The translations under genes and the position numbers were made by a program. A stretch of 64,000 nucleotides of DNA from Chloroflexota bacterium (lineage in GTDB: Bacteria; Chloroflexota; Anaerolineae; DTLA01): positions 1 to 64,000 of the forward strand of contig JADBJK010000016.1 in NCBI GenBank assembly GCA_014874485.1, written 5' to 3'. The notes under the pieces were generated by a model that ran no database searches, was not told the origin of the DNA, and saw nothing but the letters and a program-made list of their open reading frames with translations. Every line of letters starts with the position of its first letter. Positions within the stretch are counted from its first letter, which is position 1. This document shows positions 1-7,099 of this stretch, in pieces.

Positions 1-203
1 AACGACCGAATGTCGTTAGGTTGTCGCGCAGAATCTACCTCACCTATCCCCACCCCGGCCCTCCCCTTTCCTCTCCGCGGGCGGAGAGGAAAGGGGAGGG
101 TGTGGGAGGGGTTAGGTGAGGTCAAGCAGCCCCATCGCCCTACGTCAGGCGGCGAAAGAGACTGCCCATTGCAGCAGCCTTGCCCCCAAACCGAAATGCG
201 CCC
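1..203. mobile_element. MITE-like element, copy 1 (cut by window start)
   Basis: This is the first of four copies of one element (others at 2944-3210, 24382-24609 and 62409-62675). The window opens about 20 bases inside its left end. It contains the shared central palindrome of about 84 bp (38-121), whose arms start and end with CCTCACC/GGTGAGG and pair around a CGCGGGCG-like centre. Its right end, GAAATGCGCCC, is an inverted version of the left ends seen in the other copies. It has no coding capacity. The right-hand target flank is AATGTCTG, and the left flank lies outside the window. It lies downstream of the NTF2-like gene and may have replaced that cassette's own recombination site. Confidence 0.75.
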
Positions 204-251: not shown

Positions 252-641
252 CTACGCGCCGCCGAAGGGGCCCTTGACGTAGGAGCGGTGCTCGCAGATG
301 AGGTGCTCGCGCACCTGGAAGATGTCCACGCCGCGCACGTGGCCCGGCTCGCCCGAGGCGCTCACCCAGTCGCAGCGCCAGCGCATGACGCACCGCAGGC
401 CGAACCCGAAGACGTCCTCAACCTTCAGGCGGGCCTGGGGCGACCGGCGGAAGAAGTCCTGCCAGAACTCGGCGACCGCCGCCTTGCCCGAGCGCACGGC
501 GCCGTCGGGCGCGGGGCCGGCAGTCTCCAGCACGCAGTCGTCGGTCAGAAGTTGCATCATGCCGGCGACGTCGTGGCGGTTGAAGGCCTCGGCGAACTCC
601 AACACGACGCGCACGGCCGATTCAATCCGCGCCATCTTCAT
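252..641 (-). CDS. NTF2-like / SnoaL-like small protein
   Basis: A 129-residue protein with the alpha+beta cone fold pattern of the NTF2/SnoaL/ketosteroid-isomerase superfamily. The N-terminal helix (FAEAFNRHDVAGMMQLLTDD) is followed by strands with the typical CVLE, FGFGLRCVMRWR and VRGVDIFQVRE segments. The ATG at 641 is chosen because AAGGAG lies eight bases before it. The superfamily includes isomerases, polyketide cyclases and many binding proteins, so the substrate cannot be named. The gene follows the DUF4272 cassette in the same direction, separated by an attC-like site and an 82-bp repeat unit, which suggests it was also acquired as a gene cassette. Its own downstream attC is not visible; MITE copy 1 lies there instead. 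Confidence 0.75.
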   Translation of the reverse strand: MKMARIESAVRVVLEFAEAFNRHDVAGMMQLLTDDCVLETAGPAPDGAVRSGKAAVAEFWQDFFRRSPQARLKVEDVFGFGLRCVMRWRCDWVSASGEPGHVRGVDIFQVREHLICEHRSYVKGPFGGA

Positions 642-679: not shown

Positions 680-761
680 GCCGCCGCGAGCGCAGCGAGC
701 CAGGCCGACAAGCGGCGAAGCCGCCGCGCCGTTCAGCCGAGCGCGAAGCGGTCGGCTGAAC
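680..761. repeat. 82-bp repeat unit, copy A
   Basis: This stretch is identical over its 82 bases to 1797-1878. It contains a 10-bp perfect inverted repeat (GTTCAGCCGA / TCGGCTGAAC, here 731-740 and 752-761) and a GCGGCGAAGCCGCCGC hairpin. On the minus strand it begins exactly at the right core (GTTCAGC) of the attC-like site at 755-841 and precedes the NTF2-like gene. It looks like a degenerate or partly duplicated recombination site, or a shared cassette leader. No protein is encoded. Confidence 0.7.
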
Positions 762-841
762 GATCTGCCGCTCAGCCGCAGACGCGAGCGGCGAGCGAAG
801 CGAGCCGCGAAGCGGCTGTCGGCTGGAGCGGCGGGTTATGC
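755..841 (-). other. Integron attC-like recombination site 1
   Basis: Read on the minus strand, this site starts with the core GCATAAC (835-841) and ends with GTTCAGC (755-761). The inner arms are CCGCTCCAGCCG and CGGCTGAGCGG. They pair perfectly except for one extra C in the first arm, which is the extrahelical base that marks attC sites. The middle is GC-rich and self-complementary (GCCGCTTCGCGGC). It lies directly downstream of the DUF4272 gene, as expected for that cassette's own attC. The whole DUF4272 cassette would span about 761-1721. The cores deviate from the strict consensus, so this is a structural call. Confidence 0.65.
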
Positions 842-884
842 GGCGTAAGCATCCGTTCTTACTTATCAACTCAACGCTTTCTCC

Positions 885-1688
885 TCACGTATCGGTAGGG
901 GTTTCATCCCATCGGTTATTGGGAGCATATCCGCAAAGCCAATTAAGCGCAAAGTGCCGCTCCACAGTAATTGAGCGTACTACAGACCATTCTTCAGGAG
1001 TTAGATCCCGGTATGCTTTCCCGTGCACTGCAAAATCCTCATCAATTACGTCAAGCAGCCCTTCTTCCTTGCAACGATTCGCAGTGAACCTCACAATATC
1101 ATCAAATGTCTCGAGACCTGCTGCTTTCATCTTCGGATCAGGATCAAAAGTGCGCCCCTCTTCAATCAGTTGCCGAGTCCGACTGCGCCAATGCCAAAGT
1201 TCAGCCAAGTCACGCGCTTGGTCAATCTCCACATTGGGTAATAAACGCACTGATTTGACAAACTCACCGATCTCCTCTGAGGGGATTTCCTTCAGCAAGT
1301 CGAGACTGGCTTGGGTGTCGTAGGGCGGAAGACTAGGCACAAGTCCAAGAGCCCACATCAAAACCTGAACTGCCTCTATCCGCCACATTGCATTGAGCTG
1401 TTCTTGATGCGTCATCGTTAGCATTGTGGTCGTGGCAAATTCACGTTCCTGAGGCGAAAGAACACTCCACAGCCTTAAAGCGCGAAGACGCTCCCAGTAC
1501 TTATCACGCATTACTTGAGCGTCGTGCTCGAACTTAATCCGTTCGCTCTCATCCCAGTTCTCAAACCATTGCATTAGCACATCTCGTGGCGGCGTTATCA
1601 TCGCATAACCCACCACGTACTTGAGCGCGAGTAGCCGCTTCGCTACTTCCTCAGCAGATGGTCGCTTGTTACGCCCACGGAACCGCAT
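885..1688 (-). CDS. DUF4272-family protein
   Basis: A soluble protein of 267 residues that I assign to the DUF4272 family. Typical features are the N-terminal RSAEEVAxRLLAL-like helix (residues 10-24, here PSAEEVAKRLLALKYVVGYA), the central WRIEAVQVLMWALGL segment (residues 101-115), and the C-terminal VDEDFAVHGKAYRDL / ERHFALNWLCGY region (about 215-256). Members are common in accessory DNA, including integron cassettes, but their function is unknown. AAGGAG lies six bases before the ATG at 1688. The gene is noticeably richer in A+T than gatB and the genes to the right. It is bounded by two attC-like sites, which together define a complete cassette. Confidence 0.8.
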   Translation of the reverse strand: MRFRGRNKRPSAEEVAKRLLALKYVVGYAMITPPRDVLMQWFENWDESERIKFEHDAQVMRDKYWERLRALRLWSVLSPQEREFATTTMLTMTHQEQLNAMWRIEAVQVLMWALGLVPSLPPYDTQASLDLLKEIPSEEIGEFVKSVRLLPNVEIDQARDLAELWHWRSRTRQLIEEGRTFDPDPKMKAAGLETFDDIVRFTANRCKEEGLLDVIDEDFAVHGKAYRDLTPEEWSVVRSITVERHFALNWLCGYAPNNRWDETPTDT

Positions 1689-1715
1689 TGTGATCTCCTT
1701 TGTCGCTCGCGAGCC

Positions 1716-1798
1716 GCATAACGGCGCGGCGGTTGAGATGCGCGCAGCGGAGGCGCTGGCGCGCCTCCGCCAGCGTCATCTCCAACCGCTTGTTCGGC
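1716..1798 (-). other. Integron attC-like recombination site 2
   Basis: Read on the minus strand, this site runs from GCCGAAC (1792-1798) to GTTATGC (1716-1722). The inner arms are GCGGTTGGAGATG and CATCTCAACCGC. They are complementary apart from a single extra G in the first arm, the extrahelical base typical of attC sites. The centre is a strong GGCGGAGGCGC / GCGCCTCCGC hairpin. The insertion point G^TTATGC lies at 1721/1722, about 18 bases before the ribosome-binding site of the DUF4272 gene, so this site would belong to the preceding (now empty or lost) cassette. Confidence 0.7.
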
Positions 1799-1878
1799 CG
1801 CCGCGAGCGCAGCGAGCCAGGCCGACAAGCGGCGAAGCCGCCGCGCCGTTCAGCCGAGCGCGAAGCGGTCGGCTGAAC
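1797..1878. repeat. 82-bp repeat unit, copy B
   Basis: This is the second copy of the unit described at 680-761. It abuts attC-like site 2 on one side and the A+T-rich stretch TATATATTATGC (1879 onward) on the other. Because copy A follows attC-like site 1 and copy B precedes attC-like site 2, the two flank the DUF4272 cassette as direct repeats, so homologous recombination between them could delete that cassette. Confidence 0.7.
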
Positions 1879-1931
1879 TATATATTATGCTGCAATTTGC
1901 TATACGGCGGAATTTCCGTATAATATCGCCA

Positions 1932-1978
1932 ATTCAGCGGGCTATGCGGGAAACATCCCGCGTATCCCTGCACTGAAT
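1932..1978. other. Long imperfect hairpin in the array leader
   Basis: The stretch folds as ATTCAG...CTGAAT at the base, GGG/CCC in the middle and GCGGGA-AACA-TCCCGC at the tip, about 47 bases in all. It lies between the leftward promoter at 2014-2043 and repeat unit B. It has no clear U-tract, so it may be a structured leader, an attI remnant or a weak terminator. The rest of 1879-2090 is A+T-rich and shows no gene. Confidence 0.45.
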
Positions 1979-2013
1979 CAATGACTTACGTTGGTGAAAC
2001 GAAGTCCATCCGT

Positions 2014-2043
2014 ATTATATCACACCTTCACGAGAAAAATCAA
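2014..2043 (-). promoter_or_regulatory. Sigma-70-type promoter reading into the cassette array
   Basis: On the minus strand TTGATT (2038-2043) is followed after 18 bases by TATAAT (2014-2019), with TG before the -10 (TGATATAAT). Transcription would run left through the hairpin and repeat unit B into the DUF4272 and NTF2-like genes, so it could play the part of an integron Pc promoter. This is inferred from sequence only. Confidence 0.55.
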
Positions 2044-2090
2044 TAGGTCTTATGAGCAATTTGCTACGTACGCCTCCCCCATCCCCCCAA

Positions 2091-2324
2091 CCGCCCTTGT
2101 GTGCTATAATCCCCACGACACCGCCACGCGGGGGAGCCATGGAGTACGAAGCCATCATCGGAATGGAAGTCCACGCGCAACTGCTGACGCGCAGCAAGAT
2201 GTTCTGTGCGTGCGCCGCCGACTACGCCGCCGCGCCGTTCAGCCGCACGCAGGAACAGTCAGCCCGACGCGCGGGGCATTTCCCCTCCTTGTCCGGCTAT
2301 CGTGCCGCTACGTGTCGGACTTGA
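2091..2324 (+). pseudogene. Duplicated promoter and 5' end of gatB
   Basis: From about 2091 the sequence repeats the promoter and first 33 codons of gatB (3308-3451). The CTATAAT box (-10 at 2105-2110), the GCGGGGG leader and ATGGAGTACGAAGCC at 2139 are all present. The coding copy is the same over 99 bases except for one T/C change. At GCCGCCGCGCCG (about 2228-2239) it leaves gatB and continues with TTCAGCCG, a sequence also present in the 82-bp repeat unit. The open frame runs to 2324 and would give a 61-residue product with GatB residues 1-32 and an unrelated tail. It cannot be a working amidotransferase. Confidence 0.8.
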
Positions 2325-2562
2325 CTCCGACGCGCTTCTTGCCCTGTTGAATCTCTGCCAGTTGGATCACCAGACGCAGGGCTTCGTTCACCGCCGCCTC
2401 ATCTGGGAAAGCCTTGGCTACGTCGGGATCCAGCAGCACCAGATTGGTACCTGCACGGTAACGGGCCACGTGCTTGCCACGAACCCCTCCCTTGAGCAGT
2501 TCTCCCAGGTTGTACTCAGGGCGCAGTTCGTCGTCCATCTCAGTCGTGTCTTTGCTCTTCAT
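2308..2562 (-). CDS. BrnA-position antitoxin candidate
   Basis: An 84-residue protein partnered with the BrnT-like toxin upstream. The first 23 bases overlap the toxin gene, so translation is probably coupled. The core ([40 protein letters not shown]...) is that of small partner proteins found after BrnT-type or related toxins. The C-terminal [13 protein letters not shown] helix resembles the tail of such proteins. I see no clear ribbon-helix-helix N-terminus, so it may be a BrnA analogue rather than true BrnA. Known BrnA neutralises BrnT and represses the operon; that role is inferred here from position. Confidence 0.65.
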
Positions 2563-2821
2563 AGGCTCTTCTCTCCGCGCGGGTCAGTTCGCGCGCACTG
2601 ATAATGCGGACCGCATCTCCGCGTTCCCCAAACGACACAATTAGCAAACGGCCTCTGTACGACTGGCCCACGATGATGAAACGGTCTTCTTCTTCCGAAT
2701 GGTCTGGATCGGACACAGTTACACTCAGCGGATCTCCAAACACTGTCGCTGCTTCAGCGAAAGATACCCCGTGCTTCGCCAGGTTCCTGGCAGCCTTCTG
2801 CGGGTCCCATTCAAATTCCAC
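2540..2821 (-). CDS. brnT: BrnT-family ribonuclease toxin
   Basis: A 93-residue protein with the BrnT signature at its N-terminus (FEWDPQKAARNLAKHGVSF, residues 3-21), then EAATVFGDP, DRFIIVGQSYRGRLLIVSF and the C-terminal [18 protein letters not shown]. BrnT toxins are RelE-fold ribonucleases that cleave RNA when freed from their antitoxin. The length matches the family. It is the first gene of a two-gene leftward operon with a good promoter at 2900-2928. The pair sits between the duplicated gatB 5' end and MITE copy 2, which marks the whole interval as acquired DNA. Confidence 0.85.
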   Translation of the reverse strand: MEFEWDPQKAARNLAKHGVSFAEAATVFGDPLSVTVSDPDHSEEEDRFIIVGQSYRGRLLIVSFGERGDAVRIISARELTRAERRAYEEQRHD

Positions 2822-2943: not shown

Positions 2944-3210
2944 GGGTGCATTTCAATCCTGGGGCGAGAATGACCGGATGTCGTTAGGCTGCCGAGCAGA
3001 ATCTACCTCACCTAACCCCTCCCGCACCCTCCCCTTTCCTCTCCGCCTGCGGAGAGGAAAGGGGAGGGCTGGGGTGGGGATAGGTGAGGTCAGCAGGCCC
3101 ATCGCTGTACGTTGGGCGGCGAAAGGCGGATTCCGTTGAGTGTGGAGCGGCTCACGAGTCTGCTCCGGGCTGCCATTGCCGCAGGCTTGCCCCCAAACTG
3201 AAATACACCC
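2944..3210. mobile_element. MITE-like element, copy 2 (267 bp)
   Basis: A full-length copy starting GGGTGCATTTCAATC and ending GAAATACACCC. These ends form an imperfect terminal inverted repeat of about 22 bp. The central palindrome is at 3006-3090. The flanks CGCGCAAG (2936-2943) and TGCGCAGG (3211-3218) match at six of eight bases, consistent with an aged 8-bp target duplication. It separates the brnT promoter from the gatB promoter. No transposase gene is present, so it would need a transposase supplied elsewhere. The rest of 2822-3352 holds only promoters. Confidence 0.75.
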
Positions 3211-3352: not shown

Positions 3353-4789
<1,437 letters not shown>

Positions 4790-6453: not shown

Positions 6454-6508
6454 CTTGTCCCACTGGAAACGTGTGCGATGCCGACACCGGAAAGGAGTGG
6501 ATGCCATC

Positions 6509-7099
6509 GTGAGCGAGTACACCGTACCCTGCGTCTACTTTGAGCAGGCCGGCCCCGCCAACACCGAGCGAGCCCTGGAGATCGCCAAGGCGCGGGCCGA
6601 CCAACTCGGCATTCGGAGCATCCTCGTGGCGACGACCACCGGCGAGACCGGCGTCCGCGCCGCCCAGGTCTTCCGCGGCTACGACCTCGTGGTGGTGTCC
6701 CACAGCCACGGGTTCAAGGCCCCCAACACCCAGGAACTGACCGACGCGAATCGCGCCGCCATCCTCGCCGCCGGCGCGAAACTCCTCACCTGCCAGCACG
6801 CCTTCGGCGGCATCAACCGCGCCGTGCGAAAGGAGTTCGGCACCTACATGCTGGACGAACTCATCGCGTTCGTGCTGCGGAACTTCTCGCAGGGCGTGAA
6901 GGTGTGCGTGGAAATCGCCGTCATGGCCGCCGACGCGGGCCTGGTGCGCGTGGGCGAACCCGCCATCGCCATCGGGGGCACGGGGCGCGGCGCGGACACG
7001 GCCGTGGTGCTCATCCCGGCCAACGCCCAGGACTTCTTTGACTTCCGCGTGCTGGAAATCCTGTGCAAGCCCCGACTGGGGCGGCCGCTGAAGGGGTAG
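6509..7099 (+). CDS. Stand-alone pyruvate-kinase C-terminal-like domain protein
   Basis: A 196-residue protein resembling only the C-terminal alpha/beta domain of pyruvate kinase. Visible features are ANTERALEIAKARADQLGIRSILVATTTGETG, a central segment with GYDLVVVSHSHGFKAPN, and a C-terminal GRGADTAVVLIPANAQDFFDFRVLEI. The catalytic TIM barrel of pyruvate kinase is absent, so it cannot have that activity. Such solitary domains are annotated as hypothetical PK_C proteins; a ligand-binding role is possible. GTG at 6509 is chosen because AAGGAG precedes it by 11 bases. The stop at 7099 is three bases before pstS, so it may lie at the head of the pst operon. Confidence 0.7.
   Translation: MSEYTVPCVYFEQAGPANTERALEIAKARADQLGIRSILVATTTGETGVRAAQVFRGYDLVVVSHSHGFKAPNTQELTDANRAAILAAGAKLLTCQHAFGGINRAVRKEFGTYMLDELIAFVLRNFSQGVKVCVEIAVMAADAGLVRVGEPAIAIGGTGRGADTAVVLIPANAQDFFDFRVLEILCKPRLGRPLKG

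Follow-up and report, generated by a model that had tools for sequence, protein, structure and literature searches.

The first kilobases of contig C24 in a Chloroflexota draft genome (3.74 Mb, 95.7% complete, 122 contigs) carry what an earlier note described as an integron-like gene cassette array lacking an integrase. This raises the question of whether the array belongs to an integron and, if so, where its integrase went. We analysed the first 64 kb of this contig (the window), in which the array can be followed leftward to the contig end at position 1, together with other contigs of the same genome (own contigs) and two genomes of the same genus but of different species (G001 and G002). The description was supported by an attC model, exact cassette ends, and a scar of the integrase gene, and the array very probably represents the proximal part of a sedentary chromosomal integron from which an internal deletion removed intI. 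The order proposed leftward from gatB is gatB fragment, 13-nt intI scar, Pc, attI, gene-less cassette with attC1, DUF4272 cassette with attC2, a third junction, and an NTF2-like gene (Table 1).

Table 1. Coordinates of the array and its surroundings in the window.
Feature	Position	Strand	Evidence
SnoaL/NTF2-like gene, candidate third cassette or chromosomal flank	252..632	-	PF12680, 79 bits
85-nt repeat opening at the third GTTCAGCC junction (G761)	680..764, second copy 1797-1881	-	99% identical
attC2 (second structured site)	753..843	-	30.3 bits, E 7.9e-6, model from other genomes
Cassette 2 with DUF4272 gene, 961 bp	761..1721	-	R'/R'' complement and homology ends
DUF4272 gene, 267 aa, complete	885..1688	-	PF14094, 84 bits
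attC1 (first structured site)	1714..1800	-	30.5 bits, E 6.9e-6, model from other genomes
Cassette 1, gene-less, 156 bp, closed by attC1	1722..1877	-	R'/R'' 8/9 complementary
Proposed attI region, insertion point G1878/T1877	1878..1960	-	Position and form ..ATA/GTT
Promoter-like site, candidate Pc	2014..2043	-	TTGATT-18-TATAAT, 10/12, TG before -10
intI scar: 13 nt left from the start of the deleted integron integrase gene (ATGAGCAATTTGC)	2052..2064	+	In G002, an intact intI follows this leader and start codon
Counterpart of the G002 sequence downstream of the intI stop, with a 5' gatB fragment; end GCCGCGCC	2065..2236	+	88%/95% matches
Intact gatB	3353..4789	+	In G002, gatB is immediately preceded by an intI 3' end

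The two structured sites, previously placed at 755-841 and 1716-1798, were both found on the minus strand within a few nucleotides of those positions. As in attC sites, R''/R' (AAC/GTT) and the L''/L' arms pair, with one extra base in L'': a G in attC1 (AAC 1794-1792, GTT 1722-1720) and a C in attC2 (AAC 837-835, GTT 761-759), which confirmed the cores and single extrahelical bases read in the earlier note. A strict structural scan, which required AAC, two arm segments forming 12 base pairs in total with a single extra base, and GTT, returned exactly these two sites in the 64 kb, with both strands covered. They were also the top two matches in the 64 kb, the next best scoring 17 bits, in the covariance-model search that had been suggested as a check; the model was trained on eight attC sites from six other Anaerolineae genomes with an integron integrase, leaving out sites of the window genome. 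Relaxing the arm search and ignoring sequence context yielded several false sites, and the motif and the covariance model were used instead. Rfam families at their gathering thresholds did not match the window, which has no bearing on attC sites. The spacing of the two sites (843-753 and 1800-1714, minus strand) agrees with the definition of a CALIN, in which two or more attC sites lie less than 4 kb from each other. In the whole genome, the covariance search gave ten matches up to E 0.5, on C24, C46, C65, C74, C109, and C10, and those on the first four contigs belong to recognisable cassette arrays. At 59.7 bits, the highest-scoring attC match of the assembly lies on the short contig C109 (L088). 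An attI-like sequence on this contig is similar to the attI of a different genus (G105), and C109 may therefore be a contaminant or carry a second integron.

Next, we considered the cassettes. Complementarity of R' to the R'' of the same cassette, the criterion for a gene cassette, was found in both: the start GTTATGCGGC and attC start GCCGCATAAC of cassette 2 are perfect 10-nt complements (10/10), and the start GTTCAGCCG and R'' CGGCCGAAC of cassette 1 are complementary at 8 of 9 nt. Complements were likewise found in other own cassettes, namely the DNA-methylase/HerA cassette on C46 (10 nt), the P-type ATPase cassette on C65 (7 nt), and two cassettes on C74 (12 and 14 nt). BLAST homology of the cassette 2 DNA with other Anaerolineae begins exactly at G1722 (L029) and ends at 837/836 (L037, L028); because these limits lie at GTT and within AAC, they represent exact cassette ends. 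In L029, a cupin gene lies between an attI-like sequence and the DUF4272 cassette. The DUF4272 protein has its closest named relatives in 'Anaerolineae bacterium' MAGs (83% and 80% identical), and these matches are the basis for placing the genome in this class. A complete DUF4272 gene in a cassette at about 761-1721 thus stood as described, running from T1721 to G761. The view that the two sites bound a single cassette held for cassette 2 and had to be extended, as the first site closes a gene-less cassette of its own. This cassette recurs on own C46 and C65 and in G001 and G002; such cassettes have also been described in other systems, and some of them show promoter activity (PMC12444791).

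Dispersed GC-rich palindromic repeats or terminators flanking a gene by chance might produce a similar picture, given that the region is rich in GC palindromes and contains the 85-nt repeat, which was also found on own C46 and C65. Single-stranded DNA folding gave z = -4.7/-4.9 for attC1 and z = -2.1/-1.1, marginally better than shuffles, for attC2, so that folding energy by itself is convincing for attC1 and weak for attC2. The probability of such a chance arrangement is nevertheless close to nil in view of the independently trained attC model, the exact cassette ends, and the intI gene behind the same leader and differing cassettes behind one site described below; moreover, no terminator-like site was called at attC1 or attC2. 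The other expectation set against an integron, a locus conserved among relatives and lacking attC matches, was not borne out either, as attC sites were found and the locus differs between species.

For one gene the cassette reading is less firm. The NTF2-like gene noted as the next one is present, but no attC was found downstream of it, and the homologue in G002 is flanked by a truncated attC on one side and by a chromosomal gene on the other; the window gene may be either a third cassette or chromosomal flank. On own C46, a 4.2-kb cassette (L022 6184-10370) encodes a D12-class adenine methylase, a HerA-like ATPase, and a third protein of no known family, and looks like a candidate defence system inside an integron cassette. 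Own C74 (L023 5710-7960) contains an array with the promoter TTGACA-17-TACAAT and with PIN-domain toxin-antitoxin, lipoprotein, and small-ORF cassettes.

In agreement with the earlier note, no integron integrase was found in the window, and none above the TIGR02249 family cut-off in the whole assembly (95.7% complete, so that an intI might lie on the missing sequence). The array therefore lacks the intact intI of a complete integron and has no integron integrase nearby, as expected of a CALIN. The two best recombinase matches of the genome (C8 and C73) scored as XerC and XerD and were rejected as IntI. PF13009 (Integrase_2) was the wrong family, giving no match in control genomes either, and was replaced by TIGR02249. 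The earlier note had suggested searching for intI beyond position 1; the site of loss lies instead between Pc and gatB. On G002 C44, the leader of the window (93% identical) runs into an intact intI (L047 105-1079), followed by a short spacer, a 5' gatB fragment, and a DUF1801-type gene. In the window, the leader reads through ATGAGCAATTTGC and then, at a junction at approximately 2064/2065, jumps to the sequence that follows the intI stop in G002 (88% match to C44:1085-1249; 95% match to the start of the own gatB). The sequence comparison thus places the deletion from codon 5 to about the stop of intI, with ATGAGCAATTTGC fused to the gatB fragment. An identical scar and join was found on own C46, beside the same DUF1801 gene as in G002.

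This scar bears on two other explanations of the missing integrase. Cassettes inserted into a secondary site by an integrase encoded elsewhere, at a place that never had intI, would also account for its absence, and this is a recognised route to CALINs (PMC8618304). Such an origin could apply to the two lone sites on C10 and C109; for the window array it is highly improbable, since the leader, the first intI codons, and the post-intI-stop sequence of G002 are all present and joined. Only slightly less improbable is that the cell has an intI which the assembly collapsed or joined wrongly, as the genome is a draft and contigs break at the repeat in all three genomes. The same join, however, is present on two contigs (C24 and C46) with different flanks and a sequence difference of approximately 5%, which is unlike the product of a single mis-join, and IntI was found nowhere in the assembly. 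Loss of intI by internal deletion is accordingly retained as the preferred reading.

The presence of one scar at two own loci suggests, in its simplest reading, that the deletion preceded the duplication of the platform. The gatB locus is probably the ancestral site of the integron, as the 3' end of intI lies directly upstream of the true gatB in G002 and G001 retains remains there: a promoter-like site, an attC1 copy, and a possible intI 5' remnant (L071), the last with 15 residues at 87% and weak taken alone. The gatB fragment would then probably be the passenger of a copy that moved, and homologous recombination at this fragment may have brought the C24 copy back. Between the gatB fragment and gatB, a BrnT/BrnA-like toxin-antitoxin pair (2308-2821, minus strand) ends near GCGGCTGAAC (2236), abutting the gatB fragment; a shortened relative in G001 (C19, L090) is directly followed by a strong attC, so the window pair may be a former cassette. 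A strongly palindromic dispersed repeat of approximately 125 nt occurs at window positions 1-124 and 2969-3092 and in L024 (~6490-6680), with many copies in the genus (numerous matches in G001 and G002).

Comparison with the sister species revealed turnover behind a constant site. Across the three species, attC1 is followed by a different sequence in each of seven copies (own C24, C46, and C65; G001 C100 and C110; G002 C7 and C36), and a shortened form was additionally found on own C74. Two length variants occur; inside each, identity is 91-100% over the 74 nt left of the junction and 28-40% over the 40 nt right of it. Because the copies diverge from the base after G (G/TT), they bear the signature of site-specific recombination at this position; the seven junctions and the cassette-bounded homology point to past events catalysed by an integron integrase. 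Cassette gain and loss, for which a comparison of strains had been proposed, was evident between species at two loci. At an epimerase-type (rfbC-like) locus, the same constant site is followed by the P-type ATPase cassette on own C65 and by a methyltransferase cassette on G001 C100; upstream of gatB, G001 has a different cassette (GTTAGCCAGG..) and no DUF4272 gene. The leader and constant element are largely restricted to the genus; four other genomes gave weaker matches. G001 and G002 each encode a true IntI (~497 bits, TIGR02249). Beside a transporter gene lies a second integron, whose intI is truncated at its 5' end in G002 (C44:9457-10038) and absent from own C74, where the array occupies the corresponding position, so integrase loss affected two platforms. 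On G002 C133 (L074 1-900), another leader copy is joined to transposase-like sequence where intI should start, which suggests that an insertion removed a further integrase.

The leftward promoter predicted at 2014-2043 is present as a promoter-like sequence. In relatives with intact intI, such a sequence is followed by the insertion point ..ATA/GTT upstream of intI, and its window counterpart is G1878. The attI and Pc proposed for the window are thus assigned by position and by pattern or homology. As attC1 directly precedes every variable cassette, it was considered as attI itself; comparison with the intact integrons places attI at G1878 and identifies attC1 as the attC of the gene-less cassette. 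By these sequence features, the array is a CALIN that retained a candidate attI and Pc region.

The cassettes would have entered while an integrase was active, in the own lineage or in trans, by recombination of folded single-stranded attC at G/TT. Deletion of intI would have come first and duplication of the platform later, probably by homologous recombination through the gatB fragment. Thereafter, the array would be unable to shuffle itself, while Pc may still drive transcription of the DUF4272 gene and the attC sites may serve as substrates for IntI supplied in trans. One feature has no ready explanation, namely the recurrence of one gene-less cassette ahead of variable cassettes at dispersed loci. 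Possibly, though we consider it rather unlikely, the attC-type site of the fixed gene-less cassette, rather than a simple attI, is the effective capture site in this genus, and the leader with this cassette acts as a dispersed multi-copy landing pad that works without a local integrase, with IntI in trans; the variable sequence after the constant site in 7/7 copies, in three species and at different loci, is compatible with this reading.

Such arrays had been said to be seldom described in this kind of bacterium, which did not hold: Chloroflexota are listed among the integron-bearing phyla (PMC8618304, PMC9668308), and IntI was found above the cut-off in 43/150 related genomes, so integrons are not exceptional here. 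At least 41/100 related genomes had attC matches (E<=0.001), approximately 18 of these without IntI at E<=1e-40; these attC counts are lower bounds, as the strict filters missed known G002 sites. Anaerolineae, seldom cited for integrons, thus appear to be a large, little-used cassette reservoir. Neither the CALIN nor its origin through intI loss is a new idea (PMC8618304, PMC9024848), and of the intI genes studied, 43% were predicted to be inactive (PMC3108266). The window array is a well-documented case of a known element and involves no new principle. It offers a base-by-base view of how an integrase-less array originates, the intI between Pc and the adjacent gene having been deleted before a second locus received a copy of the platform, and represents a clean test case of how arrays freeze.

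Among known systems, the intact integrons of the same genus (G002 C44 and G001 C79) were compared on the integrase side only, as both contigs break at attI. The leader is shared (93% identical in G002, where IntI has 324 aa and the integron-specific insert ALARKYPNADKELAWQYLFPS), whereas the integrase is deleted in the window. The array resembles CALINs (PMC9024848, PMC8618304) in its two attC sites 0.9 kb apart, a typical single-gene cassette, and the lack of intI. It differs from them in one gene-less cassette that recurs at other loci and in keeping a candidate attI/Pc region and a readable intI scar, which make its origin by deletion traceable. The integrase-deleted chromosomal integrons of Xanthomonas (PMC12444791) likewise have a deleted or truncated intI, an array at a fixed place by a housekeeping gene, and an intact intI in sister species. 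The present array differs in its phylum, Chloroflexota, and in its anchor gene (gatB here, ilvD there); its unusual detail is the several dispersed platforms per genome, two with the same deletion scar and most with the same gene-less first cassette.
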